DNA of 64,000 nt from Shinella zoogloeoides (GTDB taxonomy: Bacteria; Pseudomonadota; Alphaproteobacteria; Rhizobiales; Rhizobiaceae). Of this stretch, positions 6,238-64,000 are shown in pieces. Each line of letters starts with the position of its first letter. The stretch's first letter is position 1. The stretch spans positions 2,483,501-2,547,500 of the forward strand of contig NZ_CP132311.1 in the NCBI RefSeq assembly GCF_030733845.1, read 5' to 3'. Made by a program: the position numbers and the translations under genes. Under the pieces are notes generated by a model. The model was not told the origin of the DNA. It did not search any database and worked only from the letters and a program-made list of their open reading frames with translations.

Positions 6238-6463
6238 CATTCGTTTCGACGATGACACGATGTGGGTGGCCCTCGACGACGGGCGCACGCTCGGTGTTCC
6301 GCTTGCCTGGTTCCCACGCCTCCTCGTCGCAGACAAGGCGGCGCGCCAGCGCTACGAACTCAGCCCCGGCGGCATCCACTGGGATGCGCTCGATGAGGAC
6401 ATTTCCATTGCCGGCCTTCTGGCGGGCCGTGGCGACCAGACGCTGAGGCGCCCGGCCGCCTGA
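6218..6463 (+). CDS. DUF2442 domain protein
   Basis: 81 residues covering a complete DUF2442 domain: an N-terminal beta-rich part (FDDDTMWVALDDGR), VPLAWFPRLL in the middle, and the conserved IHWDALDEDISIAGLL segment near the end. It overlaps the DUF4160 gene by 20 bases. Proteins of this family are small, often DNA-binding-like and often encoded beside DUF4160; their cellular job is not established. It ends three bases before the convergent alpha-glucosidase gene. Confidence 0.85.
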   Translation: MNISATDIRFDDDTMWVALDDGRTLGVPLAWFPRLLVADKAARQRYELSPGGIHWDALDEDISIAGLLAGRGDQTLRRPAA

Positions 6464-6466
6464 TCC

Positions 6467-8110: not shown

Positions 8111-8260
8111 GCGTTCTCGCTCCGGTTCTCGATTGCATTCCGGCAGATGTAACGCGCACCCCACGGGGCGTAAACGGGCTGGACCCCGATTTTTCGAAGG
8201 TTGACGAACCAACGGTCGGCCTGGATGATGCCGGCAAATTCCATAGAGAAGGTTGACCAT

Positions 8261-9265: not shown

Positions 9266-9280
9266 GCGGGAGGAACGGGC

Positions 9281-10195
9281 ATGGCGGGACGGCTGCTGGC
9301 GATCGGCGAATGCATGGTGGAACTGATGCAGGCCGATGGCGGCCTGATGCGCAAGAGCTTCGCCGGCGACACGTTCAACACCGCCTACTACGCCCGGCAG
9401 TTCCTGCCTGCCGACTGGAGCGTGGACTACCTTTCCGCCGTCGGCACGGACATGATCTCCGACGAAATGCTCGCCTTCATGCAGAGCCATGACGTCGGCA
9501 TCGACCATGTCGCGCGGATCGAGGGCCGCTCGCCCGGCCTCTACATGATCCACCTCAAGGACGGCGAGCGCAGCTTCTCCTACTGGCGCTCCGTCTCGGC
9601 GGCAAAACTCCTCGCCCGCGACGGCGACCGACTGCGCAGCGCCATCGAAGCTTCGGATATCGTCGTCTTCTCCGGCATCACGCTGGCCATCCTGCCGGCG
9701 GAGGATATCGAGACCCTGCTCGCCGAGCTGCGCCGCGCCAGGGCCGCCGGCAAGCGCGTCGTCTTCGATCCCAACATCCGCCCGCGCCTGTGGGACGATG
9801 CGGAATACATGCGCGCGACGATCACCGAGGGTGCCCGCGCCGCCACGCTGGTCATGCCTAGCCTCGACGACGAGACCACCCATTTCGGCGACGCCTCGCT
9901 GGAGGAAACCATCGCGCGCTACCGCGCGCTCGGCGTCGAGGATCTGGTGGTGAAGGACGGCAGCGAGGGCGCAACGCTCGTCTTCGGCGACAAGCGCAGC
10001 CACGTTCCCTCGGCGAAGGTCGAGACGGTCATCGATACGACCAGCGCCGGCGATAGTTTCAACGGCGCGTTCCTCGCCCGCCTGGCGACGGGCGCAAGCC
10101 CTGAAGAGGCAGCCCGCTTTGCGGCCGACGTCGCGGCCGCCGTCATCCAGCACCATGGCGCGCTGGTGGCTAGGGACAAGCTTGCGAAGGAATGA
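9281..10195 (+). CDS. kdgK: PfkB family sugar kinase, probable 2-dehydro-3-deoxygluconokinase
   Basis: 304 residues, ribokinase/PfkB fold. The N terminus GRLLAIGECMVEL and the GDTFNTAYYAR segment match KDG kinases; VVFDPNIRPRLW is the mid-protein signature, and DTTSAGDSFNGAFLA near residue 250 holds the catalytic Asp and anion hole. It should phosphorylate 2-keto-3-deoxygluconate to KDPG for the Entner-Doudoroff pathway. It is preceded by GGGAGGAAC and forms a probable operon with the Ldh-family gene. Another hexose or keto-sugar is possible as substrate. Confidence 0.82.
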   Translation: MAGRLLAIGECMVELMQADGGLMRKSFAGDTFNTAYYARQFLPADWSVDYLSAVGTDMISDEMLAFMQSHDVGIDHVARIEGRSPGLYMIHLKDGERSFSYWRSVSAAKLLARDGDRLRSAIEASDIVVFSGITLAILPAEDIETLLAELRRARAAGKRVVFDPNIRPRLWDDAEYMRATITEGARAATLVMPSLDDETTHFGDASLEETIARYRALGVEDLVVKDGSEGATLVFGDKRSHVPSAKVETVIDTTSAGDSFNGAFLARLATGASPEEAARFAADVAAAVIQHHGALVARDKLAKE

Positions 10196-10207
10196 GCGGA
10201 GGCGCGA

Positions 10208-11638
10208 TCAGCGCTTCTTCTTCGCCCGCCCCGCGAACGGATTGTCCGACGCCCTGAAGTGGATGCGGATCGGCACGCCCGGCAGGTTGAAATCGTTGCG
10301 CAGGCCGTTGGTGAGATAGCGGATATAGGATTCCGGCAGCGCATCCGGCCGCGTGCAGGAGATCATGAAGCCCGGCGGACGGGCCTTCACCTGCGTCATG
10401 TATTTCAGCCTCAGGCGGCGGCCGGAGACGGCCGGCGGCGGATGCTGCGTCTGCTGCGCATCCAGCCAGCGATTGAGCTTGGCGGTGGAGATGCGGCGGT
10501 TCCAGGTGCGGTCCGTGTCGATGACGGCCTGCATGAGTTTGTCGAGGCCGCGGCCCGTCTGACCGGAGACCGGCACGGCACGGATGCCGCGCGCCTGCGG
10601 CAGCAGCCGGTCGGTCTTCTCGCGAAGCTCGGCGAGCACGGCCTGCGGGTCATCGATCAGGTCCCACTTGTTGAAGGCGAGCACGGCGGCGCGGCCCTCG
10701 CGCAGCACGAGATCGACGATCTGCAGGTCCTGCTTTTCGAAGGGAATGGTGGAATCGAAGACGATGACCACCGTCTCGGCAAAGCGGATGGCCCGCAGGC
10801 CGTCTGCGACGGAGAGCTTTTCCAGCTTCTCCTGCACCTTGGCCTTGCGGCGCATGCCGGCGGTGTCGAACATCTTGATCGTGCGGCCCTTCCAGTCCCA
10901 TTCGACGGAAATGGAATCGCGCGTGATGCCGGCCTCCGGCCCTGTCAGCAACCGGTCCTCGCCGAGGAAGCGGTTGATCAGCGTGGACTTGCCGGCATTC
11001 GGGCGGCCGACGATAGCGACGCGCAGCGGCTTCGTCTCGTCATATTCAGGCTCGTAGTCTTCGTCCTCTTCGGCGCCCTCGGCCATCTCGGCGCGCACGT
11101 CGATATCGGTGACGGCCTCGTCGTCCTCGGGATAGGCCCGCTCCTCGCCGATGGCGGCGACGATGGCGTCGCGCAGGTCCAGCATGCCCTGGCCGTGCTC
11201 GGCGGAAATCGGTGTCGGCTCGCCGAGGCCGAGCGTGTAGGCATCGTAGAAGCCGCCGTCGGAGCCACGGGCTTCCGACTTGTTGGCGACGAGCACCACC
11301 GGCTTGCCCTTGCGGCGCAGCATGTCGGCCAGCGCCTGGTCCACCGGCGTCAGGCCCATCTTTGCGTCGACCACGAAGAGCGACAGGTCGGCCTCGTCGA
11401 TGGCCGCTTCCGTCTGCGCGCGCATGCGGCCCTGCAGCGTGTCCGGCGCCGCCTCTTCGAGGCCGGCCGTATCGACGATGCGGAATTTCAGGTCGATCAG
11501 GCGCGCGTCGCCCGGCCGGCGGTCACGGGTCACGCCGGGCGTGTCGTCGACGAGCGCGAGCTTCTTGCCCACGAGCCTGTTGAACAGGGTGGACTTGCCG
11601 ACATTGGGGCGTCCGACAATGGCGACGGTGAAGCTCAT
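10208..11638 (-). CDS. der: Ribosome biogenesis GTPase Der
   Basis: 476 residues with two consecutive Era-like GTPase domains, the hallmark of Der/Eng[10 protein letters not shown] near residue 8 and GRPNAGKST near residue 210, each followed by DTAG and NK(S/W)D-type motifs. A C-terminal KH-like domain ends in a lysine-rich tail (GRAKKKR). An acidic linker ([14 protein letters not shown]) joins the G domains. It acts in assembly of the 50S ribosomal subunit. It lies 37 bases downstream of the YfgM-like gene, a common arrangement in bacteria. Confidence 0.96.
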
Positions 11639-11675
11639 GGATATGTTCCGTTGTAGTGACCCGGCGAAAACCGGA

Positions 11676-12347
11676 TCAGGAGGACAGCTTGCCGCTTGCC
11701 GCGATCAGGTCAAGCAGCATCTGCGCCCGGTTGGCGACGTTGCGCGGGCTCTCGGTGTCGTTGAGGATGGCGTCGAACCATTCCTTGGCGCGCGCATAGT
11801 CCTCGTGCTTGTAGGCGGAAAGGCCGAGAACCTCGCGGGCCGAATGGCGCAGCGCGCTCTGCGGCGTCGCAAGCTGTTCGGCTTCGGCGGAAACCTGGTC
11901 GTAGGTTCCGGTATCGACCAGCAGGTAGGCCGCGCGCAGGCGGGCCGCATCGCGCAGCGCCTGCGGCACCGACGTATCCTTGGCGATGACCGTGAAGGCG
12001 TTGACCGCGCCCTGGGCGTCGGTTTCGGCCAGCAGCGAGGCAGAGCGCATGCGAGCGAGCACCGGATAGGAGCCGAAGCCGTCCTTCTCGAGATCGGTCA
12101 GCGCTGCCAGCGCCTCGTCCTTCTTGCCTTCGCGGGCAAGGGTAAGCGCTGCGAGGAACTTGTCGCCGGCGGCCGAAGCCTCGCCGTCGCGCCAGTAATC
12201 GTAGCCGACCTTGCCGATCGTGCCGAGAACGACCAGCACGGCGGCGCCGATCAGGACACGGCCGAAACGCTTCCAGACCAGACGCATCTGGTCGGAACGA
12301 AGTTCCTCGTTCACCTCGCGGATAAAGCTGTCGTCCTGATGTACCAT
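11676..12347 (-). CDS. YfgM-like tetratricopeptide membrane protein
   Basis: 223 residues: a short cytosolic N terminus ([19 protein letters not shown]), one transmembrane helix at about 32-48 ([19 protein letters not shown]), then a periplasmic helical TPR-like part. This layout matches the YfgM family (UPF0070), an ancillary SecYEG/periplasmic chaperone protein in E. coli. In many bacteria it precedes der, as here. In this organism its exact role is inferred only from family and position. Confidence 0.8.
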
Positions 12348-51312: not shown

Positions 51313-52521
51313 TCAGCCCTTGTTCTTGTTGTAGACGTCGAAGAACACCGCGGCGAGCAGCACCAAGCCCTTGATGAGCTGCTGGTAGTCGATGCCGATG
51401 CCCATGATCGACATGCCGTTGTTCATGACGCCCATGATGAAGGCGCCGATGACCGCACCGGTGATCTTGCCGACGCCTCCCGACGCCGAGGCGCCGCCGA
51501 TGAAGCAGGCCGCGATGACGTCAAGCTCGAAGCCTACGCCTGCCTTCGGCGTCGCCGAATTGAGGCGGGCCGCGATGATCATGCCGGCGAGCGCGGCGAG
51601 CGCGCCCATGTTGACGAAGGTGTAGAAGGTCAGGCGCTCGGTGTTGATGCCCGAGAGCTTCGCCGCCTTCTCGTTGCCGCCCATGGCATAGATGCGCCGG
51701 CCGATCGTCGTGCGCGTCGTCACGAACGTATAGAGCGCGATGAGCACGCCCATGATGACGAGCACGTTCGGCAGGCCGCGATAGGTGGAGAGCTGGAAGC
51801 CGAGGAAGATCGCAACCGCGCCGATGATCGCCATCTGCACGGCGAAGAAGGTGAAGGGCTCGTTCTCGGTCTCATGCAGGGCGTTCATGCGCCGCTCGCG
51901 CAGGCCCGCATAGACGGCATAGGCGACGAGCAGGACGATCATGACGAGGGCGAAATAGTTCTTGATGAGGCTCGTCGCCGGGTCGGTGATGGACAGGAAA
52001 TCCGGCACGAAGCCCGTCGAGAGGATCTGGAACTCCTTCGGGAACGGACCGACCGGGCGACCGGAGAGCACGACATAGGTCATGCCGCGGAAGACGAGCA
52101 TGCCGGCGAGCGTGACGATGAAGGACGGTATCTTCTGGTAGGCGACCCAATAGCCCTGTGCCGCGCCCATGACGGCGCCGACAAGGATACAGAGCGGCAC
52201 CACGACGATGGCCGGCAGCCCCCATTTCACCAGCATGATCGCCGATATGGCGCCGGTGAAGGCGACGATGGAGCCGACCGACAGGTCGATATGCCCCGCC
52301 ACGATGATCAGCAGCATGCCCAGCGCCATAATGACGATAAACGAGTTCTGCAGTACCAGGTTGGTGATGTTGACCGGGCGGAAGAGCACGCCGTTGGTGA
52401 GTATCTGGAAGAAGATCATGATGACGACGAGCGCGACGAGCAGGCCGTATTCACGGATGTTCTTGCGCAGGTAGTCCCCCACCGAAGGCTGGGTCGTCTT
52501 GGTCGCGGTATCGGTGGCCAT
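51313..52521 (-). CDS. gguB: Multiple-monosaccharide ABC transporter permease GguB
   Basis: 402 residues, MmsB/BPD-type sugar permease of the ribose/xylose (CUT2) family. About ten hydrophobic segments are visible (LLVALVVIMIFFQIL, NSFIVIMALGMLLIIVAG, IAGALAA-like helices and ALAALAGMIIAARL). The DLSVGSIVAFTGAISA segment and GRRIYAMGGNEKAAKLSGIN are family signatures, the latter the EAA-like ATPase contact. Its ATG overlaps the gguA stop by one base. It partners GguA and ChvE. Confidence 0.93.
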   Translation of the reverse strand: MATDTATKTTQPSVGDYLRKNIREYGLLVALVVIMIFFQILTNGVLFRPVNITNLVLQNSFIVIMALGMLLIIVAGHIDLSVGSIVAFTGAISAIMLVKWGLPAIVVVPLCILVGAVMGAAQGYWVAYQKIPSFIVTLAGMLVFRGMTYVVLSGRPVGPFPKEFQILSTGFVPDFLSITDPATSLIKNYFALVMIVLLVAYAVYAGLRERRMNALHETENEPFTFFAVQMAIIGAVAIFLGFQLSTYRGLPNVLVIMGVLIALYTFVTTRTTIGRRIYAMGGNEKAAKLSGINTERLTFYTFVNMGALAALAGMIIAARLNSATPKAGVGFELDVIAACFIGGASASGGVGKITGAVIGAFIMGVMNNGMSIMGIGIDYQQLIKGLVLLAAVFFDVYNKNKG

Positions 52522-54056
52522 TAGTGTTTCTCCCCGGAGCGCATGATGGCGCGCATGATGGATTCCTGGCTTGCTTCCGCCTTGGAGAGCTCGGCCACGA
52601 TGCGTCCTTCGTTCATGACATAGATGCGATCGCAGGTCCCGAGCAGTTCCGGCATCTCCGACGAGATCATGAGGATGCCCTTGCCCTCGGCGGCAAGCTG
52701 GTTGATGATCGAGTAGATTTCGAACTTGGCGCCGACATCGATGCCGCGCGTCGGTTCGTCGAGGATCAGGACCTCGGGATTGGTGAAGAGCCACTTCGAC
52801 AGCACGACCTTCTGCTGGTTGCCGCCCGAAAGATTGACCGCTTCCTGATAGATCGAGTGCGAGCGGATGCGCAGCTTCTGGCGGTAGCCCGAAGCGACCT
52901 TGGCCTCCTGGTGGCTATCGATCACCGTCGCCCTGGAGACGCCGCCGAGATTGGCCAGCGTCGTATTGTGCATGATGTTGTCGATCAGCACGAGACCGAG
53001 CTGCTTGCGGTCTTCCGTGACATAGGCAAGGCCCGCCTCGATCGCCTTCGGGATCGTGCTGACATCGACCGGCTTGCCGCGCATGGCGACCTCGCCGGTG
53101 ATCTTGTGGCCCCAGCTCTTGCCGAACAGGCTCATCGCCGTCTCGGTGCGGCCGGCGCCCATCAGGCCGGCAATGCCGACCACCTCGCCGGCGCGCACGG
53201 TGAAGTTCACGTCGTGCAGGAACTGCCGGTCGCGGTGATGCTGGTGGAAGACGTTCCAGTTCTTCACCTCCAGCAGCGTCTCGCCGATCTTGGGCTCGCG
53301 CGGCGGATAGCGGTCCTCCATCTCGCGGCCGACCATGCCCTTGATGATGCGGTCCTCGGAAATATCCTCGTGGTGACAGTCGAGCGTCTCGACCGTGCCG
53401 CCGTCGCGCAGGATGGTGATCTGGTCGGCGACCTTTTTGATCTCGTTCAGCTTGTGCGAGATGATGATCGAGGTCATGCCCTGCGTGCGGAATTCCATCA
53501 GCAGCTTCAGCAGCGCGTCGGAATCCTTCTCGTTGAGCGAGGCGGTCGGCTCGTCGAGGATGAGAAGGCGCACCTTCTTGGAAAGCGCCTTGGCGATCTC
53601 CACGAGCTGCTGCTTGCCGACGCCGATATCGGTGATCAGCGTGCCCGGTGGCTCCTTGAGGCCGACCTTGTCGAGCAGTTCCTGCGTGCGGCGGAAGGCC
53701 TGCTTCCAGTCGATGACGCCGTTCTTGGCGACCTCGTTGCCGAGGAAGATGTTTTCCGCGATCGACAGGAGCGGCACGAGCGCCAGCTCCTGGTGGATGA
53801 TGATGATGCCCAGATGCTCGCTGTCGGAGATCGTGGAAAAGCGGCGGACTTCGCCGTCGAAATGGATTTCACCCTCGTAGGAGCCGGCCGGATAGACGCC
53901 GCTCAACACTTTCATGAGGGTGGATTTGCCGGCCCCGTTCTCGCCGACAAGGGCATGGATCTCGCCTTCGCGGACCTTCAGGTTGACGTTGTCGAGCGCC
54001 TTCACGCCCGGGAACGTCTTCGTGATGCCACGCATTTCCAGAAGGGTCTTGCTCAT
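52521..54056 (-). CDS. gguA: Multiple-monosaccharide ABC transporter ATPase GguA
   Basis: 511 residues with two ATPase domains as usual for CUT2 sugar importers. Domain 1 has Walker [10 protein letters not shown] near residue 37, LTP-type signature [13 protein letters not shown] and Walker [12 protein letters not shown]; domain 2 has a degenerate Walker A (GLMGAGRTE), the signature [15 protein letters not shown] and [13 protein letters not shown]. It energises uptake of galactose, arabinose, xylose, glucose and related sugars delivered by ChvE. Confidence 0.94.
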
Positions 54057-54130
54057 ATAACCAGGTTTCCAGCGGCCATCCGCCGTCACTCAAGCGGCGG
54101 GGTCCAGCCTATTCGCTCTGCGATCAGGAG

Positions 54131-54163
54131 AAAAGAGGGTCCGCGCACGTTGCGCGCGAACCC
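54131..54163 (-). terminator. Attenuator-type hairpin between chvE and gguA
   Basis: On the minus strand GGGTTCGCGC pairs with GCGCGGACCC (one G-T pair, 7-base loop), followed by TCTTTTCTCC. It lies 19 bases after the chvE stop and 75 bases before the gguA start, so it probably ends most transcripts after chvE and keeps binding protein in excess over the ATPase and permease. Confidence 0.6.
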
Positions 54164-54181
54164 CCGATGGCGGCGAAAGGA

Positions 54182-55255
54182 TCAGTTCTTGAGCTGATCG
54201 GCCGTGTAGTAGGCCGAGTCCGTGACGAGGATCTTCTCGGCATTCGACTTGTCGACGGCGACAGGCTTGAGGAGGTAGGACGGAACGACCTTGACGCCGT
54301 TGTCATAGGTCTTGGTGTCGTTCACTTCCGGCTCCTTGCCTTCCAGGATCGCATTGACCATGCCGACGGTGACCTTGGCCAGTTCGCGCGTGTCCTTGAA
54401 GACCGTCGAGTACTGTTCGTCAGCGAGGATCGACTTGACGGACGGCAGCTCGGCGTCCTGGCCGGTGACGATGGCCATCGGCTGGTCGCCCGAGCCGTAG
54501 CCGACGCCCTTCAGGGCCGACAGGATACCGATGGACAGGCCGTCATAGGGCGACAGCACGCCATCGACGCGGCCGTCGGTGTAGGTCGAGGACAGCAGGT
54601 TCTCCATACGCGCCTGCGCGACGGCACCGTCCCAACGCAGCGTGCCGACGGTTTCCATGCCGGTCTGGCCCGACTTGATGACGATGTCGCCCTTGTCGAT
54701 GAGCGGCTGGATGACCGACATCGCGCCATCGTAGAAGAAGAAGGCGTTGTTATCGTCCGGCGAGCCGCCGAAGAGTTCGACGTTCCACGGCTTGGTGTCC
54801 GGGAACTTCGCCTTCAGGCCATCGACGAGGCTGGTGGCCTGCAGGACGCCGACCTGGAAGTTGTCGAACGTGGCGTAGTAGTCGACATTGCCCGAATCGC
54901 GAATGAGACGGTCGTAGGCGATGACCTTCACGCCGGCATCGGCAGCCTTCTGCAGGATGTCGGAAAGCGTCGTGCCGTCGATCGCGCCGATGACGAGAAC
55001 CTTGGCACCCTTGGTGACCATGTTCTCGATCTGGGCGAGCTGGTTCGGGATATCGTCGTCAGCGAACTGCAGGTCCGGCGTGTAGCCGGCATCCTTGAAC
55101 AGCTTTTCCATCGTCTCGCCGTCGGAAATCCAGCGGGTCGAGGTCTTGGTGGGCATGGAGATGCCGACCATGCCCTTGTCCTGGGCAAAGGCCGGCGCCA
55201 CGAACGACGCGACGCTGATGGCAGCGGCGGCGAGAAGCGAAGTGATCATTTTCAT
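54182..55255 (-). CDS. chvE: Periplasmic multiple-sugar binding protein ChvE
   Basis: 357 residues. A signal peptide ([18 protein letters not shown]) precedes a class-I type sugar binding protein: [20 protein letters not shown] at the mature start (the ligand-stacking W), [41 protein letters not shown] and [20 protein letters not shown]. This is the ChvE/MmsE family, which binds arabinose, glucose, galactose and xylose for GguAB uptake and, in Agrobacterium, signals sugar to the VirA kinase. GGGAGAG precedes the start. Confidence 0.95.
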
Positions 55256-55426
55256 TGAAAGGTCTCTCCCTTGTGCGCACTGGCCGATATTGCGGCCAGG
55301 CATTGCTCTGTGCGCGGACGGGGTCGCATTCAGGCGACGCCTGGACTGGTCGGGCGCAGGCCCGCCGGTCCCCACTCCCAAGGACCCCAGCGCACATTGG
55401 CGCAACGTCGTACGAATTGCCATAAC

Positions 55427-55469
55427 TGTCAAATGCAATGAACTTCTAAATCGATATCATATTTGATAT
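55427..55469. promoter_or_regulatory. chvE/gbpR intergenic control region with LysR-type box
   Basis: ATATCA-TATT-TGATAT (55454-55469) is a perfect 6-bp inverted repeat that fits the T-N11-A LysR box. A minus-strand TTGACA (55427-55432) lies 22 bases on the chvE side, so the box is in activator position for chvE and overlaps the probable promoter of the divergent LysR gene. No clear -10 was found for chvE. Confidence 0.55.
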
Positions 55470-55509
55470 ATAGTGAGCGAAATATACTATTTTTACGGAT
55501 AGAGGAATC

Positions 55510-56517
55510 ATGCGTCTGGAGAGCGACAACGAGGAGCAGCTTTTTGCCGGGGAAAGCCTCGACAACCTGCAGGGCATCGGCCTGCTGCGCAGCGGCCTGA
55601 AGCTCAGCCACCTGCGCATGATCGTGGCGATTGAGGAGCACAAGCAGGTGAGCGCCGCGGCGGATGCGCTCAACATCTCCCAGCCCGCCGCGTCTCGCAT
55701 GCTGACGGAAATGGAGACGATCCTCAAGGCCCAGCTTTGCGAGCGCATATCGCGCGGCGTGGCGCTCACAGCCTTCGGCCGGGCCTTCGCCCGCCGGGCG
55801 CGCACCATCCTGCTCGAACTGCGCGAGGTCGACCGCGAGCTTTCGGCGCTGAAATCCGGCACCGGCGGCTCGGTCTTCCTCGGCGCGGTGACGGCGCCGG
55901 CCATCAGCCTTGCCGTGCCGGCGATCCAGCAGGTCAGCGCCGCCTATCCCGGCATCGAGGTGAACGTGCGCGTGGAGACGAGCAATGTGCTCGCCCGCGA
56001 ACTGCTCGCCGCGCAGCAGGACTTCATCATCGCTCGCGTGCCGGACGACCTCAATCCGCGCCTCTTCAACGTCACCGAGATCGGCATCGAGAAGGCCTGT
56101 CTCATCGTCCGCAAGGGCCACCCGCTGACGGAAAAGCCCGTCGTCGGCCTTGCGGACCTGCCGCGCTACGACTGGGTCTTCCAGCCCGCCGGCACGCTAC
56201 TGCGGCGCCGCATCGAGGAACTGTTCATCGCGGCGGGCGTGCCGCTGCCCTCCACGGTGGTCAACACCTCGTCCATCCTCCTCACCACCGCCATCGTCTG
56301 CGGCTCCAACGCGATCGCGCCGGTGGCGCGCGACATGGCGACCTTCATTGCCGATGTCGGCGCGCAGGCGGGCGAGATCAGCATCCTCAACACGGATTTC
56401 GAGATCGACATCAAGCCCTACAGCCTGATCTCCGTCAAAGGCAGGGCGCTCCCGCCCAGCGCCAAACTGCTCTATGATCTGATCTGGCAACGCAGCCGGA
56501 CGCTTTCGCCGGACTGA
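55510..56517 (+). CDS. gbpR: LysR family regulator, GbpR-like
   Basis: 335 residues. A 35-residue N-terminal extension precedes the winged helix-turn-helix at about residues 32-92 (LKLSHLRMIVAIEEHKQVSAAADAL, ISQPAASRMLTEME), then an effector domain (SVFLGAVTAPAISLAVPAIQQV). It is divergent from chvE, the position of GbpR, the galactose-binding-protein regulator that activates chvE with sugars in Agrobacterium and Azospirillum. A palindromic LysR-type box lies between the two genes. Confidence 0.85.
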   Translation: MRLESDNEEQLFAGESLDNLQGIGLLRSGLKLSHLRMIVAIEEHKQVSAAADALNISQPAASRMLTEMETILKAQLCERISRGVALTAFGRAFARRARTILLELREVDRELSALKSGTGGSVFLGAVTAPAISLAVPAIQQVSAAYPGIEVNVRVETSNVLARELLAAQQDFIIARVPDDLNPRLFNVTEIGIEKACLIVRKGHPLTEKPVVGLADLPRYDWVFQPAGTLLRRRIEELFIAAGVPLPSTVVNTSSILLTTAIVCGSNAIAPVARDMATFIADVGAQAGEISILNTDFEIDIKPYSLISVKGRALPPSAKLLYDLIWQRSRTLSPD

Positions 56518-56531
56518 GCGAAGGAGACCCC

Positions 56532-57035
56532 ATGTTCGGCATGACCGTTTTCGAATCCGTGCTGGAACGCCTGAAGGCGGAGGCCCGCGAGGCGGCCGAA
56601 GAGGCGGAGGGCGAGACGCCGGACGACGGCGGCCACGGACAGATTCGTGGCCTGATCTCGGGCTTTACCGGCCTCGGCACGGCGGGCACCTTCGTCTCGG
56701 GTTCACAGGCCGCCGCCGCCTATCTCGATCTCTACGAGGAGCCGCGCCCGCCCGAACCGCAGCCGCCCCCGCCGCCCGAGGCACCGCCGGCACCGCCGCC
56801 GCATCTCCTGCGCACCGCGCCGGAGGAAGTCGCGAAAGACCTAGGCCTCAGCGGACGGGAAAATATCGACGACCTGCTTGCCCGCCGCCGCAGCTTTGCG
56901 CGCGAAAACCATCCCGACCGCGCGCCGGAAGACCTGCGCGCCAATGCGACGCTGCGCATGAAGATCGCCAACATGCTGATCGACGAGACGATCCGCCGGG
57001 TCAATGTCGAGAAAAGCCTCGGGCTGTCGCGCTAG
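56532..57035 (+). CDS. Proline-rich protein with degenerate J-domain-like C terminus
   Basis: 167 residues, preceded by AAGGAG. Residues 1-60 are acidic then Gly-rich, residues 70-90 are a Pro-rich linker (PPEPQPPPPPEAPPAPPP) and the C terminus has ARRRSFARENHPDRAPEDLR, in which HPD sits where a J-domain places its Hsp70-contact motif. The helix order agrees loosely with DnaJ. The partner and role are unknown; no transmembrane helix is seen. It starts 14 bases after gbpR and may be co-transcribed. Confidence 0.65.
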   Translation: MFGMTVFESVLERLKAEAREAAEEAEGETPDDGGHGQIRGLISGFTGLGTAGTFVSGSQAAAAYLDLYEEPRPPEPQPPPPPEAPPAPPPHLLRTAPEEVAKDLGLSGRENIDDLLARRRSFARENHPDRAPEDLRANATLRMKIANMLIDETIRRVNVEKSLGLSR

Positions 57036-57337: not shown

Positions 57338-58132
57338 TCAAGCGCCGAGCCCATCGAGGAAGGCGGCAAGCTCGGAAGGCTCGATGCCGACGAGGTGCCC
57401 CTTTTCCGGATAGGCGCCCGAGCGCACGTCATCGGCATATTCGCGGAAGGCCGCGACGCGCTCCTGCTGGAGCCGGTCATATTCGGCGGCGAAGTTGCGG
57501 TAGACCTTGGCATGGCGCGGATAATGGCCGCGATTCTGCCCGAGCACGTCGTCCGCGAAGAGATATTGCGCGTCGCACCCCGCCCCCGCGCCCATCGACA
57601 GCATGACGAGCGCGGTCCTCGCGCTGATCGCCGCCGCGATTTCGCCGGGCACGACCTCGATCTCCGCCGCGAAGGCCCCCGCCTCTTCGAGCGCCTTGAC
57701 CTGCCGGAAGATTTCCAGCGCGCTTTCCGCCGTCTTGCCGACCGCGCGGAACCCGCCCGTCCATGTCGCCTTGGAGGGAATGAGACCGACATGGCCGCAC
57801 ACCGGGACGCCCTCCTCGCGCAGGCGCCGCACGGTGGAAAGGCCGGCGGCGCAATAGACCGCATCGCCGCCGGCCTTCATCGCCTGGAAGGCGCCGCGCA
57901 GGTAGTCGTCGGCCGTGACGAAATCACCGTATTCGAGGCCGGGGAAGGCAAAGACCGTCGGGGCTGCCTCACGGAAGGCCGGCCCCAGCAGGGCGGGCGG
58001 CACGGAAACAAGGTCGATGCCCGCCTGTTCGGCGGCCTCCGCCTCCTCCAGCGTCACGACGCGCAGCATGGTGAGCTGGCGCTTGCCCTTCATTGCCTGC
58101 AGGTCGGCGACGGTCGGTCTCTTGGTTTTCAC
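57338..58132 (-). CDS. PanB-like protein with altered active site, last gene of the moc-like operon
   Basis: 264 residues, PEP-mutase/PanB fold. GVPVCGHVGLIPSKA, TGGFRAVGKTAESA and ALEEAGAFAAEIEVVPGEIAAAI align with ketopantoate hydroxymethyltransferase. But the metal-binding VGDS-x-G loop reads SVPPALLG, and the K-x-E-GG loop reads YCAAGL, so the Mg-ligand Asp and Glu of canonical PanB are missing while the base Glu region is kept. It lies 12 bases after the ferredoxin reductase gene. It may act on another C1 or 2-keto substrate; pantothenate synthesis looks unlikely. Confidence 0.75.
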   Translation of the reverse strand: MKTKRPTVADLQAMKGKRQLTMLRVVTLEEAEAAEQAGIDLVSVPPALLGPAFREAAPTVFAFPGLEYGDFVTADDYLRGAFQAMKAGGDAVYCAAGLSTVRRLREEGVPVCGHVGLIPSKATWTGGFRAVGKTAESALEIFRQVKALEEAGAFAAEIEVVPGEIAAAISARTALVMLSMGAGAGCDAQYLFADDVLGQNRGHYPRHAKVYRNFAAEYDRLQQERVAAFREYADDVRSGAYPEKGHLVGIEPSELAAFLDGLGA

Positions 58133-58144
58133 GATGAATCTCCC

Positions 58145-59368
58145 TCAGGCGGCGAGCAGTTTCTTGAGCTTGGTTTCCGGTGCGGCGAGCTCCGCCGGAT
58201 CGGGATGGATGCGGGCGGCGATCAGCATTTCGGCAAGGCGGATGTCGCGCGCGACCGCATTGCCCGGCCCGATGCCGCTTGCCGCGATCAGCCGTCCGGC
58301 TGCATCGAGATGGAAGAGGATGAACGCCCCCTCGCCCATGTCGCGCCGAACGGTCGTCGCCGCGCCGTCGGCAAGGCCGGCGATCTGCAAGGTCATGTCG
58401 TACTGATCCGACCAGAACCACGGCACCGCCGCATGCACATCCGCACCGCCGAGCATGTTGGCCGCAGCGAGCTGACCCTGTTCCTGCGCGTTGCGCCAGG
58501 ATTCGAGGCGGATGCGGCGCTCGCCATAGAGCGGCAGCGGATAGGAGGTGCAGTCTCCCGCGGCAAAGATATCCGGATCGGAGGTGCGCAGCATTCCATC
58601 GACCGAGATGCCATTTTCTACGGTAAGGCCCGCCGCTTCCGCCAGTTCCGTGTTCGGCACCGCGCCGATGCCGACGACGAGCAGGCTGGCCGCAACAACG
58701 CGGCCGCCTTCAAGCGTGAGGCGCACTTCGCCCGGCAACTCCTCGACACTGGCGATCTTCGCGCCGCAGAGGATTTCCACCCCTTCGGCAGCGTGCCGAT
58801 GCGCGACGATCTCGGCAATCTCCGCCGGCACACCGCGGCTCAGGACGCGCGGCAGGCCTTCGACGAGCGTGACGGTGGCACCGAGTTTGCGGGCGCTGGC
58901 GGCAAGCTCCAGCCCGATGAACCCGCCGCCGAGAATGGCGACGTGGCTTCCCTCCACCAGATGCGCGCGGATACGCGTTGCGTCGTCATGGCTGCGCAGC
59001 GCCGCGACACGGCCGCCGTGGGTCGTGCCCGGCAGAGCGCGTGGCCGGGCACCGGTGGCAAGCAGCAGCTTGTCATAGGGAACCACCGTGCCGTCCCCCA
59101 GCACGACACATTTTGCGGCGCGATCGATCCCGCAGACCGTGCGGCCCAGCAGCATGTCTATGCCGGCTTCGACATAGCGGTGCGGCTCGGCGACGAATTT
59201 CGGGCCGGCCCCGGCAACAAGTGCTTCCTTGGAGAGCGGCGGACGCTCGTAAGGCAGGTGCGTCTCGCTGCCGATCAGGGTCAGCGTGCCGTCAAACCCC
59301 TTCTCGCGCAGCGCAAAGGCTGCGCGCGCACCGCATTCGCCGGCGCCGACGATAACGAAATTCGCCAT
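58145..59368 (-). CDS. MocF-like FAD-dependent ferredoxin reductase
   Basis: 407 residues from the ATG at 59368 (GAGGAAAC upstream). FVIVGAGECGARAAFALRE is the FAD loop, YERPPLSKEAL follows, VAILGGGFIGLELAAS is the NAD loop and IFAAGDCTSYP the second FAD contact; the C-terminal domain is of the BFD/putidaredoxin-reductase type. It should pass electrons from NAD(P)H to the neighbouring Rieske ferredoxin. It corresponds in fold and order to mocF of rhizopine loci. Confidence 0.85.
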   Translation of the reverse strand: MANFVIVGAGECGARAAFALREKGFDGTLTLIGSETHLPYERPPLSKEALVAGAGPKFVAEPHRYVEAGIDMLLGRTVCGIDRAAKCVVLGDGTVVPYDKLLLATGARPRALPGTTHGGRVAALRSHDDATRIRAHLVEGSHVAILGGGFIGLELAASARKLGATVTLVEGLPRVLSRGVPAEIAEIVAHRHAAEGVEILCGAKIASVEELPGEVRLTLEGGRVVAASLLVVGIGAVPNTELAEAAGLTVENGISVDGMLRTSDPDIFAAGDCTSYPLPLYGERRIRLESWRNAQEQGQLAAANMLGGADVHAAVPWFWSDQYDMTLQIAGLADGAATTVRRDMGEGAFILFHLDAAGRLIAASGIGPGNAVARDIRLAEMLIAARIHPDPAELAAPETKLKKLLAA

Positions 59369-59382
59369 GACGTTTCCTCTGG

Positions 59383-59430
59383 AGCATTTCCAGCCGAAGC
59401 GAAGTCGCTTCGGCGTCGGACAATGCGACA
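59383..59430. repeat. Palindromic element between the ferredoxin and reductase genes
   Basis: GCCGAAGCGA (59393-59402) and TCGCTTCGGC (59405-59414) form a 10-bp perfect stem with a 2-base loop, bounded by GCATT (59384-59388) and AATGC (59422-59426). Layout and edges (GCATTTCCAG, GTCGGACAATGC) resemble the rhizobial palindromes at 42624 and 46823 but with different arms. Confidence 0.5.
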
Positions 59431-59436
59431 AAACCC

Positions 59437-59751
59437 CTAGAGCCCGATGAAGACCGTGCCGCCCTCGACCTTGACCGGATAGGTCCTGAGATCGACGCAG
59501 ACGGGCGCGCCCTTGGCTTCACCGGACCTGTAGTCGAAGCGGCCATTGTGCTTGGGACATTCGATGATGTGATCCATCACCAGCCCGTCGGCAAGGTGGA
59601 TCTTCTCGTGGGTGCAGAGCCCGTCCGTCGCGTGATAGGTGTCTTCCGGGCTGCGGTAGATCGCGAAGGTGCGGCCCGCATGGTCGAAGCGGATGACATC
59701 TTCCTCGTCGATCTCGTCTGCCGCGCAGACCTCGATCCAGTTGTCGCTCAT
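59437..59751 (-). CDS. MocE family 2Fe-2S Rieske-type ferredoxin
   Basis: 104 residues. The Rieske ligands are visible as C-T-H in GLCTHEKIHLADG and C-P-K-H in ECPKHNGRFDYRSG, with the usual spacing. The size and sequence match the MocE group of single-domain ferredoxins. It should carry electrons from the FAD reductase to the desaturase-fold oxygenase next door, all within one operon. Confidence 0.9.
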   Translation of the reverse strand: MSDNWIEVCAADEIDEEDVIRFDHAGRTFAIYRSPEDTYHATDGLCTHEKIHLADGLVMDHIIECPKHNGRFDYRSGEAKGAPVCVDLRTYPVKVEGGTVFIGL

Positions 59752-59775
59752 GGTCTCTCCTCCGGGAATGGGTTG

Positions 59776-60861
59776 TTATTCGGCGGCCGCAATCGCCGGT
59801 TCGGCGTGGAATTCTTCCTTGTAGGGGCGTGCGGTGCCGGGCAGTTCGCGCTTCAGGAAATAGTCCTCGTTGCGCAGCTGGCGCAGGAAGGCCGGGATCA
59901 TCTCCCTGTAGCCGTGCCAGATGGACGGGTTCGGCGCCGGCAGGTCGTGCTTGATCATGGCGTGCAGCCGGGGCAGCGCATGATAGGGCACCATCGGGAA
60001 CATGTGGTGCTCCACATGGTAGTTCATGTTCCAGTAGATGAAGCGGCTGACGGGGTTCATGTAGACCGTGCGGCTGTTCAGCCTGTGATCAATGACATTG
60101 TCGGCAAGGCCGCCATGCTGGAGCAGGCCGGTCATCACATGGTGCCAGGCGCCGTAGAGCCGCGGCAGGCCGATCAGCATGGCCGGCAGGATCGAGCCGA
60201 AGTAGAAACAGGCGGCGATCGTCGCGGCATAGATGGTGAGCCAGATGCGGGCGATGCGGATCGCCTTCGGCTGTTCCATTTCCGGCACGAAGGTCTTTTC
60301 CGCCGCGCTCATCACGCCCGCCGCATTGCGCACCATATCGACGACGGCATGCCAGGCGTCGAGCAGGCCGAAGAAATTGAGGACGAGCCGCAGGAGATCC
60401 GGCGGACGCATGACGGCGATCTCCGGGTCGCGGCCGACGATGACCGTATCCGTGTGGTGACGCGTGTGGCTCCACCGCCATGTCACCGGATTGCGCATGA
60501 TCATGAAGCAGGCGATCTGGTAGACGGCATTGTTCATCCACATCGTCTTGAAGGCCGTGCCGTGGCCGCATTCATGCCAGCGGCTGTCGGAAGCCGAACC
60601 GTAGAGGACGCCATAGACGAGGAAGAACGGCACCGCCCACCAGGTTCCCCAGAACCAGATACCCGCAGCGGCGCAGACCAGCATGGTTCCCAGCCAGATC
60701 GCAGTGTCGCGGATGGCGGCCGCATCGCTGCGCTGCATCAGTGCCTTCATTTCCTTGCGCGGGATTTCGGTATGATACCATTCGGCCGCGGCCAGCCCGT
60801 TTGCAACGGCGGCCTCGGCATCGCGGCCAAGAAGGCTGTAATCCCTCTTCGTCGGGTTCAT
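59776..60861 (-). CDS. MocD-like membrane di-iron oxygenase (fatty acid desaturase fold)
   Basis: 361 residues. Three histidine boxes for a di-iron centre are visible: HECGHGTAF (about residue 97), WSHTRHHTD (about 132) and NYHVEHHMFP (about 281), plus two to three hydrophobic pairs (LGTMLVCAAAGIWFWG, FFLVYGVLYG, IWLTIYAATIAACFYFG). It is an inner-membrane oxygenase. The closest functional precedent is MocD, which with MocE and MocF oxidatively removes the methyl group of rhizopine. Lipid desaturation is less likely given this operon. Confidence 0.82.
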   Translation of the reverse strand: MNPTKRDYSLLGRDAEAAVANGLAAAEWYHTEIPRKEMKALMQRSDAAAIRDTAIWLGTMLVCAAAGIWFWGTWWAVPFFLVYGVLYGSASDSRWHECGHGTAFKTMWMNNAVYQIACFMIMRNPVTWRWSHTRHHTDTVIVGRDPEIAVMRPPDLLRLVLNFFGLLDAWHAVVDMVRNAAGVMSAAEKTFVPEMEQPKAIRIARIWLTIYAATIAACFYFGSILPAMLIGLPRLYGAWHHVMTGLLQHGGLADNVIDHRLNSRTVYMNPVSRFIYWNMNYHVEHHMFPMVPYHALPRLHAMIKHDLPAPNPSIWHGYREMIPAFLRQLRNEDYFLKRELPGTARPYKEEFHAEPAIAAAE

Positions 60862-60970
60862 CGCTCGTCTCCTCCACGCGGGGCACGCTCACCGACCCGC
60901 CTCATCTGATGGACAAACGATACCGCCGCTTCTTGCGTCTCTCAATCCTGCCATGATAGAATGCGTCAAA

Positions 60971-61004
60971 TTCCATCATTCACTATCATTCCTGTTTGAT
61001 GGAA
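60971..61004. promoter_or_regulatory. Candidate LacI-regulator operator in the mocD-lacI intergenic region
   Basis: TTCCATCA (60971-60978) and TGATGGAA (60997-61004) are inverted half-sites 18 bases apart. The same half-site occurs in TTCCATCATGATGG at 62070-62083, before the TIM-barrel gene. This pairing in the two likely promoters of the locus suggests operators for the adjacent LacI-type protein. Confidence 0.45.
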
Positions 61005-61022
61005 AGATTTCAGGAGGGGAAC

Positions 61023-62054
61023 ATGGCATCGAGACCAACCATCTCGGATCTCGCCAGGGCGGCCGGCGTCAGCGTCGCGACGGTCGACCGAGTGTTGAAC
61101 GGCCGCCACAAGGTGCGCGAGGAAACGGCGCGCCGGGTCTATGACGCCGCCAACGCCATCGGCTATCACGCCATCGGCCTCATAAGGCAGCGCGTCTTCG
61201 AGGACCTGCCGCAATACCGGCTGGGCTTCAGCTTCCAGCGCCCGGGCCAGGCCTTCTACCAGAATTTCGCGCGCGAGATCGAAATCGCCTGCAATGCCTG
61301 CACCACCGCGCGCATCGTGCCGCAGATCGAATTCATCAGTGCGCAGACGCCCGCGGCGATGGCGGAGATGCTGCGCCAGCTTTCCGCGCGCAACCAGGCG
61401 CTCGCCGTCGTCGCGCCGGACTATCCGGCGACCACATCCCTGGTGGAAGACCTGAAGGCCCGCGGCATTCCGCTGTTCTGCCTGCTCTCGGATTTCGCCA
61501 TGGACGTGCGCCAGGGCTATATCGGCCTCAACAACATGAAGGTCGGACGCACCGCCGCCTGGATGATCGCGCGTGGCGCGAAACGCCCCGGCAAGGTCGC
61601 GATCTTCGTCGGAAGCCACCGCTTTCACGGCCACGAACTGCGCGAGATGGGGTTCCGCTCCTTCTTCCGCGAGAAGGGCCAGGCCTTCGAGGTGCTGGAC
61701 ACGCTGGTCAACCTCGACACCAGCGAGATCACCCACGAAGCGACGGCAAACCTTCTGGCGCAGCACCCCGATCTCGTCGGCCTCTATGTCGCCGGCGGCG
61801 GCATGGAGGGCGCGATTTCGGCGATCCGCGAGGAAGGCTATGCCGGCAAGGTGCAGCTCATCGTCAACGAACTGACCCCGGAATCGAGGGCCGGCCTTGC
61901 CGACGACGTCGTCACCATGGCCATCAGCACCCCCTTGCCCGCCCTCTGCCGTGAACTCGTCTCGCTGATGGTGACCGCCATCGAGAAGGGCGAAAACGCC
62001 GTGCCCGGCCAGACATTCCTGCCCTTCGACATCTTCCTGCCGGAGAATATCTGA
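61023..62054 (+). CDS. LacI family transcriptional regulator of the moc-like locus
   Basis: 343 residues from the ATG at 61023, preceded by CAGGAGGGG. Residues 5-55 are a LacI helix-turn-helix (ISDLARAAGVSVATVDRVLNGRHKV), followed by a periplasmic-binding-like effector domain (GFSFQRPGQAFYQNFAREIEIAC, GLYVAGGGMEGAISAIREEG). It is divergent from the mocDEF-panB operon and upstream of the TIM-barrel gene on the same strand. Sequence type resembles regulators of cyclitol or sugar pathways; effector unknown. Confidence 0.9.
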   Translation: MASRPTISDLARAAGVSVATVDRVLNGRHKVREETARRVYDAANAIGYHAIGLIRQRVFEDLPQYRLGFSFQRPGQAFYQNFAREIEIACNACTTARIVPQIEFISAQTPAAMAEMLRQLSARNQALAVVAPDYPATTSLVEDLKARGIPLFCLLSDFAMDVRQGYIGLNNMKVGRTAAWMIARGAKRPGKVAIFVGSHRFHGHELREMGFRSFFREKGQAFEVLDTLVNLDTSEITHEATANLLAQHPDLVGLYVAGGGMEGAISAIREEGYAGKVQLIVNELTPESRAGLADDVVTMAISTPLPALCRELVSLMVTAIEKGENAVPGQTFLPFDIFLPENI

Positions 62055-62059
62055 CTGAT

Positions 62060-62083
62060 CATGATGGTTTTCCATCATGATGG
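62060..62083. promoter_or_regulatory. Overlapping palindromes, candidate operator upstream of the TIM-barrel gene
   Basis: CATGATGG-TTTT-CCATCATG (62060-62079) is a perfect 8-bp inverted repeat and overlaps the perfect 12-bp palindrome CCATCATGATGG (62072-62083). It lies 5 bases after the LacI stop codon. The half-site TTCCATCA is shared with the mocD-lacI intergenic region. Confidence 0.5.
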
Positions 62084-62213
62084 TTTCTCAATCTTTCAGC
62101 CATGACGGCGACGACGGCACCTTCGGCTTTGACGCCCGTCAAGCCTGTCCCGATCCTCATGCGTGCATGCGAGGCCGCGCTATCGGCGGCTCGAAGACCG
62201 GAGGACACCATCC

Positions 62214-63026
62214 ATGCCGCCCCTGACTTTCGCCCTCAACCACATGACGGCGCCCGCCCTGACGCTCGACGCCTTCTTCGCCCTCGCCGTCTCCCTCGGC
62301 ATGACGGCGGTCGAAATCCGCAACGATCTTGACGGCAACGCCATCCTCGACGGCACGACGCCCGCCGAGGTGACGGCGCTCGCCGAACGCCATAGCGTCA
62401 CGATCATCTCGATCAACGCCCTCCAGCGCTTCAACGAATGGACGCCCGCCCGTGCCACCGAAGCGAGCGAACTCATCGACTTCGCTAGCGCCTGCGGCGC
62501 CCGCGCGCTCGTGCTTGTGCCAAAAAACGACGGCACCGGCCAGGCTGACGGCGAGCGGCAGGCGAACTTGCGCGAGGCGCTGGCCGCGCTGAAACCCCTG
62601 CTCGACGCGGCCGGCATCATCGGCCTCGTCGAACCGCTCGGCTTCGAGATCTGCTCGCTGCGCTCCAAGCGCGAGGCCGTGGAGGCGATCAAGGCCGTCG
62701 GCGGGGAACGGACATTCCGCCTGGTGCACGACACGTTCCACCATCATCTCGCGGGCGAACCGGAACTCTTTGCCGACCACACCGGTCTCGTCCACATTTC
62801 CGGCGTCGAGGACCCGGCGGTCGCCATTTCCGACATGCGCGACGGCCACCGCGTCCTCGTCGGCCCCAGCGACCGGCTTGGGAATACGACCCAGATCAAG
62901 GCGCTGCTTGCTGCCGGTTATGCCGGCCCGCTGTCCTTCGAGCCGTTTTCGCCGGCCGTGCACGATGTCGCCGATCCCAGGGCGGCGGTCGCCGAAAGCG
63001 TCGCTTTCCTACTCGAAAGCCTTTGA
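62214..63026 (+). CDS. Sugar phosphate isomerase/epimerase-like TIM-barrel protein (IolE/MocC type)
   Basis: 270 residues from the ATG at 62214, preceded by GGAGGACAC; the frame is open 51 bases upstream. AP-endonuclease-2-like TIM barrel: MTAVEIRNDLDGN near residue 33, GARALVLVPKND near 92, LVEPLGFEICSL near 135 (metal Glu), LVHDTFHHHLAG near 165 (metal Asp/His), HISGVED and a C-terminal LSFEPFSP (metal Glu). Such enzymes dehydrate or isomerise keto-inositols or keto-sugars. MocC of rhizopine loci is of this type; the activity here is inferred. Confidence 0.8.
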   Translation: MPPLTFALNHMTAPALTLDAFFALAVSLGMTAVEIRNDLDGNAILDGTTPAEVTALAERHSVTIISINALQRFNEWTPARATEASELIDFASACGARALVLVPKNDGTGQADGERQANLREALAALKPLLDAAGIIGLVEPLGFEICSLRSKREAVEAIKAVGGERTFRLVHDTFHHHLAGEPELFADHTGLVHISGVEDPAVAISDMRDGHRVLVGPSDRLGNTTQIKALLAAGYAGPLSFEPFSPAVHDVADPRAAVAESVAFLLESL

Positions 63027-63033
63027 GCCCCTT

Positions 63034-63062
63034 GGGCCGGCGGGTGTCATGCCGGCCCTTTT
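63034..63062 (+). terminator. Intrinsic terminator after the TIM-barrel gene
   Basis: GGGCCGGC (63034-63041) and GCCGGCCC (63051-63058) form an 8-bp GC-only stem with a 9-base loop, followed by TTTTCCCC, eight bases after the stop codon. It separates the lacI-TIM-barrel transcript from the binding-protein gene. Confidence 0.8.
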
Positions 63063-63105
63063 CCCCAAGCCGGCCGGTTTCCCACCGCCGGAAAATGGAA
63101 CGGGC

Positions 63106-63169
63106 TTGACGTCACAGGCAGAAAATGGAATAAACATTCCGCAATACGGAATTCGCGGTTTGTTTATTC
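63106..63169 (+). promoter_or_regulatory. Binding-protein promoter with IolR-type box and nested palindromes
   Basis: TTGACG (63106-63111) is a good -35; about 17 bases on, AATAAA is a possible -10. Over it lies GGAA-TAAACA-TTCC (63127-63140), an exact GGAA-N6-TTCC, the motif reported for the inositol repressor IolR in Sinorhizobium meliloti. Further palindromes follow: ATTCCG-CAATA-CGGAAT (63136-63152) and GAATAAACA (63128-63136) against TGTTTATTC (63161-63169). Confidence 0.6.
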
Positions 63170-63280
63170 TGTTTTGGCCTTTTGCATCCCGGGAGGAGCA
63201 GAGGGCCGGCTGTCCCGCAAGGGCAGCTATCCGGATAATCGAGTGGCGCTGCCGGACGCCACGTTGAGGAGGAGAACGAC

Positions 63281-64000
63281 ATGAAAAAATTCATTCTTGG
63301 CTCGGCGCTTGCCGTGATGCTGTCGACGGCCGCCCATGCCGAGACGATCGGCGTGACGATGGCGCAGTTCGACGACAACTTCCTGACCGTCCTGCGCAAC
63401 GGCATGTCCGACTACGCCAAGACGCTCGACGGCGTGGAGCTGCAGGTCGAGGACGCCCAGAACGACGTCGCCAAGCAGCAGAGCCAGATCCAGAACTTCA
63501 TCGCCTCGGGCGTCAGCGCGATCATCGTGAACCCGGTCGATACCGATGCCACGGCCGCCATGTCGAAGGCCGCGGCCGACGCCGGCATTCCGCTCGTCTA
63601 CGTCAACCGCGAGCCGGTCAACGTCAACGAACTGCCGGAAAAGCAGGCCTTCGTCGCCTCTGACGAAAAGGAATCCGGCACGCTGGAAACCAAGGAAGTC
63701 TGCCGCCTGCTGAACGGCAAGGGCAAGGTGGTCGTCATGATGGGTGAACTGTCCAATCAGGCCGCCCGCGTGCGCACCCAGGACATCAAGGACGTCATCG
63801 CGACCGACGAGTGCAAGGGCCTCGAAATCGTCGAGGAGCAGACGGCCAACTGGTCGCGTACGCAGGGCTCCGACCTCATGACCAACTGGCTCTCCGCCGG
63901 ACTGGAATTCGACGCCGTCATCTCCAACAATGACGAAATGGCGATCGGCGCGATCCAGGCGCTGAAGGCGGCCGGCCGCTCGATGGACAGCGTCGTCGTT
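63281..64000 (+). CDS. Periplasmic sugar/cyclitol binding protein (MocB/inositol type), 3' truncated
   Basis: The first 240 residues; the gene runs past the right edge. GAGGAGGAG precedes the ATG. A signal peptide (ILGSALAVMLSTAAHA) is followed by a ribose-class binding fold: ETIGVTMAQFDDNFLTVLRNG at the mature start, VQVEDAQND-type second strand (LQVEDAQNDVAKQQSQIQNF), SAIIVNPVDTDATAAMSKAA, VYVNREPV and VISNNDEMAIGAIQAL. It resembles the rhizopine/inositol binding proteins of rhizobia. Transporter ATPase and permease genes presumably follow. The promoter has an IolR-type box. Confidence 0.85.
   Translation, partial: MKKFILGSALAVMLSTAAHAETIGVTMAQFDDNFLTVLRNGMSDYAKTLDGVELQVEDAQNDVAKQQSQIQNFIASGVSAIIVNPVDTDATAAMSKAAADAGIPLVYVNREPVNVNELPEKQAFVASDEKESGTLETKEVCRLLNGKGKVVVMMGELSNQAARVRTQDIKDVIATDECKGLEIVEEQTANWSRTQGSDLMTNWLSAGLEFDAVISNNDEMAIGAIQALKAAGRSMDSVVV

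Follow-up and report, generated by a model that had tools for sequence, protein, structure and literature searches.

The final part of a 64,000-nt stretch of the Shinella zoogloeoides genome (5.18 Mb, 4 contigs), hereafter referred to as the window, holds a locus of two divergent units that we read as a probable entry point for inositol with an attached demethylase for methyl-inositols. The minus-strand unit comprises mocD, mocE, mocF and a gene for a PanB-like protein (PanBL), and the plus-strand unit encodes a LacI-family regulator, a TIM barrel, a binding protein, an ATPase, a permease and a Gfo/Idh/MocA dehydrogenase (IdhA). Window proteins were assigned by profile search against Pfam and NCBIfam, with NCBIfam matches judged against the model cut-offs (Table 1), and all seven genes named in an original prediction made from the letters of the window were recovered as open reading frames of recognizable families at the positions and strands it had given. 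The genome sequence past the window completes the binding-protein gene (to window-equivalent position 64210) and adds the sugar-type ATPase, the permease and IdhA, the latter ending at 68019, which extends the locus by about 4 kb. The original prediction had proposed to look past position 64000 for such genes: the transporter genes and an inositol dehydrogenase do follow, but the dehydrogenase is not MocA, and IolC, IolD and IolE are encoded elsewhere in the genome. The function first proposed, in which a methylated cyclitol is taken up and oxidatively demethylated, remains the most likely one given the IbpA/MocB-type binding protein, the sole IolG above cut-off and the iol-linked relatives described below.

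The plus-strand unit carries the evidence for inositol. With 428.8 bits on TIGR04380, the model for inositol 2-dehydrogenase (cut-off 355), IdhA is the only one of 15 genomic matches above the threshold, and its best solved relative is the inositol 2-dehydrogenase 4hkt (634 bits), while its identity to MocA of the rhizopine-type locus of Rhizobium lentis p4 (L155) is 29.5%. All profile matches of the TIM barrel to solved structures are to 2q02, presumably Salmonella IolI2, and 4hgx (194.4 bits each), Bacillus subtilis IolI 1i60 (39.9 bits) and 7vpf (22.1 bits). No NCBIfam model matched it, including the IolE model that MocC of R. lentis passes (395.8 bits, cut-off 290), and the earlier assignment to the MocC/IolE type was therefore rejected in favour of a probable inosose isomerase of the IolI type. 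IolI enzymes interconvert scyllo-inosose and 1-keto-D-chiro-inositol, the B. subtilis protein acting on 1-keto-D-chiro-inositol (PMC3176187). An IolE above cut-off is encoded elsewhere on the chromosome with IolC and IolD homologues adjoining, where the best IolG match reaches 27%. The best solved relative of the binding protein is 4yo7 (241 bits), which we take to have been solved with myo-inositol bound. Its description as a MocB/inositol-type protein holds, as it is 77% identical to MocB of R. lentis and 86.7% identical to a pSymB protein of Sinorhizobium meliloti whose gene lies in the same order of TIM barrel, binding protein, ATPase and permease; strain 1021 has these four genes at pSymB 1513278-1518109. 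We infer that the S. meliloti protein is SMb20712, because gene order and length agree with those reported for SMb20711-20714 (PMC3454389). According to the same source SMb20712 binds myo-inositol with a dissociation constant of 4.7e-7 M, and its Tn5 mutant is described as failing to grow on myo-inositol (PMC2597717).

The minus-strand unit supplies the mocDEF oxygenase set. In MocD the eight histidines of the three desaturase boxes (H96, H100; H132, H135, H136; H282, H285, H286) are invariant in 18 aligned relatives. Its sequence found no match among solved structures at E 0.01, and the predicted structure (mean predicted local distance difference test score, 57.4) was too low in confidence for a fold search. 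MocE passes its own family model, and identities to the R. lentis counterparts are 79% for MocD, 75% for MocE, 64% for MocF and 82% for the PanB-like protein. The same genome holds a second cassette (G000:C3:30000-48000, ~6419-11992 of stretch L010) with genes for LacI, a fatty-acid-hydroxylase-type (PF04116) oxygenase, MocE, a binding protein 56% identical to that of the window, MocF and a TIM barrel-like frame lacking a Pfam match; a PanB-like gene was not seen in that stretch. Elsewhere, in stretch L036, PF04116-type and PF00487-type cassettes lie close together.

To place the locus among its relatives, we considered the best 80 of 573 confirmed stretches from GTDB genomes, in which some contigs end early. 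Homologues of MocD and MocE were present in all 80, of LacI in 79, MocF in 78, the PanB-like protein in 58, the TIM barrel in 53, the binding protein in 24 and IdhA in 19. The arrangement, which had been announced as new, is common in rhizobia and partly in print already. LacI-family FixV homologues (~60% identity) were drawn in 2013 as adjoining divergently transcribed mocDEF genes in several rhizobia; the clusters of R. etli and R. leguminosarum have a TIM-barrel gene downstream, and an inositol derivative was suggested (PMC3538637). The neighbours SMb20817 (LacI), SMb20818 (mocD), SMb20819 (mocE) and SMb20820 (mocF) are reported to be expressed together (PMC11387232). In S. meliloti 1021 the LacI-mocDEF cluster, with a PanB-like gene after mocF, lies at 605896-610786. 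Relatives of the cassette are adjoined by iolG, iolC, iolD or iolE. For example, a single stretch of Marivivens carries genes for LacI, mocD, mocE, the PanB-like protein, TIM barrel, binding protein, permease and ATPase followed by iolG, iolC and iolD (an alpha/beta hydrolase gene lies on the opposite strand between mocE and the PanB-like gene), whilst the MocD relative of R. leguminosarum Vaf-108 (~60% identity) is accompanied by genes for a sterol-desaturase-family protein, a TIM barrel and a transporter and by iolE and iolD. One strand of a further stretch (L266) encodes a TIM barrel, MocE, a second TIM barrel, the PanB-like protein, two IolG-like proteins, purU, iolC and iolD.

Taken together, this gene content is consistent with the following route. 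An ATP-binding cassette (ABC) transporter of the IbpA/IatA/IatP type would import inositol and presumably also its O-methyl ethers. Electrons from NADH would then pass through the MocF reductase and the MocE Rieske ferredoxin to the membrane di-iron oxygenase MocD, which would hydroxylate the O-methyl carbon, and breakdown of the resulting hemiacetal would release free inositol and a one-carbon unit. The latter would be accepted by the PanB-like protein, which would probably load it on tetrahydrofolate. IdhA would oxidize inositol to inosose, the IolI-type TIM barrel would convert 1-keto-D-chiro-inositol to scyllo-inosose, and the IolE, IolD and IolC encoded elsewhere would complete the degradation.

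As to the substrate in this strain, our tentative favourite is D-pinitol (3-O-methyl-D-chiro-inositol), with other methyl-inositols next, because an IolI-type isomerase would be needed for D-chiro-inositol and not for myo-inositol. In R. mesoamericanum, mocDEF homologues were reported to rise 1.53-2.11-fold with Mimosa exudate, whose most concentrated listed component was pinitol (145 µM), followed by gluconate (114 µM) and fructose (110 µM); the authors read this induction as rhizopine catabolism (PMC5789663). The same homologues are given as 59.7-79.3% identical to true mocDEF (PMC5789663). LacI-type loci compared with mocD, mocE and mocF of R. lentis have median identities of 79.6, 79.8 and 60.5%, respectively, and the one cross-genus comparison between MocR-type loci (P. 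zundukense, L157, against R. lentis) gives 80.6, 82.9 and 71.4%, so that the published range appears to resemble the LacI-type loci more. Our literature searches returned nothing on bacterial demethylation of pinitol as a sole carbon source and nothing joining IolI, chiro-inositol and pinitol, and in the literature searched on methyl-inositols no rhizobial gene was assigned to their demethylation. Methyl-inositols, pinitol among them, are common solutes of legumes, and the locus offers a widespread candidate for their demethylation that is also present in laboratory strains such as S. meliloti 1021.

The rhizopine label of the original prediction has to be weighed against four MocR-linked loci, those of R. 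lentis p4, R. leguminosarum RCAM2802 (L156), P. zundukense and S. kummerowiae (L219), in all of which a MocR homologue adjoins mocD; MocR of R. lentis passes NF052281 (740.1 bits, cut-off 650), and the other three were called by 86-99% identity to it. The proposed profile and neighbourhood comparison with moc loci came out in part, as mocDEF, the PanB-like gene and the binding protein are shared but MocR, MocC and MocA are absent from the window operon, where the neighbour of mocD is LacI-family. A locus for rhizopine (3-O-methyl-scyllo-inosamine) catabolism with LacI in place of MocR is hardly probable for this reason, even though MocD, MocE, MocF, the PanB-like protein and the binding protein are 64-82% identical to the R. 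lentis counterparts. Moreover, S. meliloti 1021 has the cluster but is described as unable to metabolize rhizopine (PMC2597717), which lack of the other moc genes could also explain, and rhizopines are reported from few rhizobia (PMC6668481) whereas the cluster is common. In a MocD tree of 75 rows, to which a set of 127 was reduced by removing near-copies among the LacI-linked rows, the four MocR-linked rows occupy two separate places, one pair sitting inside LacI-linked Sinorhizobium/Ensifer rows, and starred branches force two changes. The tree counts in favour of the rhizopine reading, and it suggests two or more origins of the rhizopine demethylase, either from the LacI-linked form or alongside it. 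The model NF052284 (‘rhizopine SBP’, a binding-protein model) was considered as a marker of mocDEF loci and rejected, since the seven above-cut-off places in 394 genomes (L095-L101) had no MocD or MocE homologue in the fetched stretches; the binding protein beside MocR in R. lentis (L155:13610-14536) scores only 38.4 bits on it (cut-off 420), and the name may be misleading.

Two further explanations concern the chemistry. MocD, MocE and PanB-like relatives are also found next to sugar transporters and dehydrogenases of other kinds, in places where no iol-type genes were recognized, and in one stretch MocE and the PanB-like gene are separated by a gene of the creatinase/M24 type (L208:5595-6947), a possible hint of an N-methyl substrate in this branch. 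The window operon, in contrast, holds IbpA-type binding protein, IolG and IolI-type genes, and we consider demethylation of a non-cyclitol here, such as betaine or another N-methyl compound or a methylated sugar, to be improbable. It is very improbable that MocD is no demethylase at all and hydroxylates or desaturates another C-H bond, for instance of a lipid: its fold family includes lipid desaturases and its best NCBIfam match is a fatty-acid desaturase model, though at 28.8 bits against a cut-off of 500, but the operon and its neighbourhood are typical of cyclitol use and the operon has no lipid gene.

We regard the PanB-like gene as the most interesting element of the locus. The original prediction took it for an addition to the moc set, yet it follows mocF in all four MocR-linked loci, although the P. 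zundukense stretch ends inside it and the R. leguminosarum copy (L156:7301-8114), which is unannotated and matches in two pieces, may be disrupted or affected by a sequence error. The formyltetrahydrofolate hydrolase gene purU comes next in three of the four; it is cut by the stretch end in S. kummerowiae and out of reach in P. zundukense. The protein has the fold of ketopantoate hydroxymethyltransferase (PanB) and scores below the cut-offs of both PanB models in NCBIfam (131.7 against 272 and 112.6 against 207.55 bits), and therefore the gene was not called panB. In 122 unique homologues compared in Escherichia coli numbering, where the D45 region aligns ambiguously, the PanB positions D84, K112 and E114, presumably the metal and ketoacid residues, are always replaced and H136 and E181 always retained. 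Within the order of the source organism (Rhizobiales), 52 of 58 PanB-like copies have a MocD-, MocE- or fatty-acid-hydroxylase-type gene less than 7 kb away, compared with none of 20 true panB genes in a control scan, from which only this count and leads were kept since frame picking often took wrong frames in GC-rich DNA; outside the order such a gene is near 12 of 25 copies. One genome of 1.6 Mb holds four copies in all, two of them in tandem (L278).

From these patterns we tentatively propose that the family is a new one-carbon enzyme that has lost ketopantoate chemistry and loads the one-carbon unit from demethylating oxygenases on tetrahydrofolate, its partners being of the di-iron desaturase type, the di-iron fatty-acid-hydroxylase type and perhaps the Rieske and 2-oxoglutarate types. 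An aldolase or hydroxymethyl transferase working on the carbon skeleton, and not on one-carbon waste, seems somewhat less likely, as the protein is found together with oxygenases of two unrelated families and with different dehydrogenases and has purU directly beside it in four stretches (L155, L156, L169 and L219). If the one-carbon proposal is true, the protein would be an overlooked part of the rhizopine pathway, placed after mocDEF and before purU, and would add a formaldehyde- or folate-handling step common to several demethylation pathways. The main texts of the moc-gene papers checked mention neither hydroxymethyltransferase nor panB nor purU, although no search was aimed at a link between PanB-like proteins and mocDEF.

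Several observations weigh against a methyl-inositol demethylase with an attached one-carbon step. Myo-inositol is the only ligand known for a close relative of the binding protein, pinitol as an inducer is a guess because gluconate and fructose occur at similar levels in the exudate, and no enzyme assay for a LacI-type locus was found in the literature searched. Given the counts for TIM barrel and binding protein (53 and 24 of the 80 loci), the complete set frequently does not occur as one cluster. The PanB-like gene does not appear in 22 of the 80 loci, some of whose contigs end early, and is therefore not indispensable; no other one-carbon enzyme was recognized in these loci when the next open-reading-frame starts were read by eye and not by family search. 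Outside the order, 10 of 25 PanB-like stretches have no recognized oxygenase gene, and the window locus itself is without purU.

Regulation presumably falls to the LacI protein between the two units, which would sense the substrate or a product; its homologue adjoins mocD in 79 of the 80 relatives. The half-site-like octamers TCTATCAA and TGATAGAA occur in 43 and 41 of the 80 related lacI-mocD spacers, respectively (raw counts with reverse complements included and without chance expectation), and are possible candidates for its operator, whilst scanning the lacI-mocD spacer for palindromes revealed no clear operator.

Ahead of the locus in the window, 51313-56517 encodes the permease, ATPase and binding protein of a sugar-type ABC transporter together with a divergent LysR gene, of which the binding-protein and LysR genes are kept at that place in 5 of the 80 relatives, and 56532-57035, between the LysR and PanB-like genes, encodes a 167-aa proline-rich protein with no Pfam match. 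Beyond IdhA lie a ROK-type regulator on the opposite strand and a D-xylose-type transporter, both identified by visual inspection and from their homology to other genes.

Table 1 Features of the locus within the window, with profile scores.
Feature	Position	Strand	Evidence
PanB-like protein (PanBL) of 264 aa, encoded at the end of the oxygenase operon	57338..58132	-	PF02548 (Pantoate_transf) 145.8 bits
MocF-type ferredoxin reductase, first ATG at 59368	58145..59371	-	PF07992 (Pyr_redox_2) 242.7 and PF14759 (Reductase_C) 79.6 bits
MocE family Rieske ferredoxin	59437..59751	-	Rieske (Pfam) 69.2 bits; TIGR02377 (MocE_fam_FeS) 177.1 bits, cut-off 136.15
MocD-type membrane di-iron oxygenase, desaturase fold	59776..60861	-	PF00487 (FA_desaturase) 125.2 bits
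Divergent promoter region, mocD/lacI spacer up to the LacI ATG at 61023	60862..61022	.	Position
FixV-like regulator of the LacI family; ATG 61023 is the probable conserved start	60996..62054	+	PF00356 51.6 and PF13407 (Peripla_BP_4) 114 bits
TIM barrel of the IolI type, a probable inosose isomerase; ATG 62214 is the probable conserved start	62163..63026	+	AP_endonuc_2 98.2 bits
IbpA/MocB-type sugar (cyclitol) binding protein, gene cut by the window end	63281..64000	+	Peripla_BP_4 170.3 bits

With the FixV-homologue/mocDEF clusters (PMC3538637), including SMb20817-20820, the locus shares a LacI gene divergent from mocDEF and, as reported for some species, the TIM barrel after LacI; the inositol transporter and idhA stand in one operon in the window, whereas S. 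meliloti carries them at another place on pSymB. The IbpA-IatA-IatP myo-inositol ABC transporter (SMb20712-20714, PMC2597717) has the same gene order and the closely similar binding protein described above, but only the transporter of the window is linked to an oxygenase set. PanB shares its fold, H136 and E181 with the PanB-like protein and differs at the D84, K112 and E114 positions and in its gene neighbours. Finally, the rhizopine mocCABRDEF locus (S. meliloti L5-30, R. leguminosarum; here R. lentis) has the order mocD-mocE-mocF-PanB-like and a related binding protein in common with the window, which instead has LacI and not MocR, an IolI-type and not an IolE-type TIM barrel, an IolG-type IdhA and not MocA, no purU, and the ATPase and permease within its own operon.

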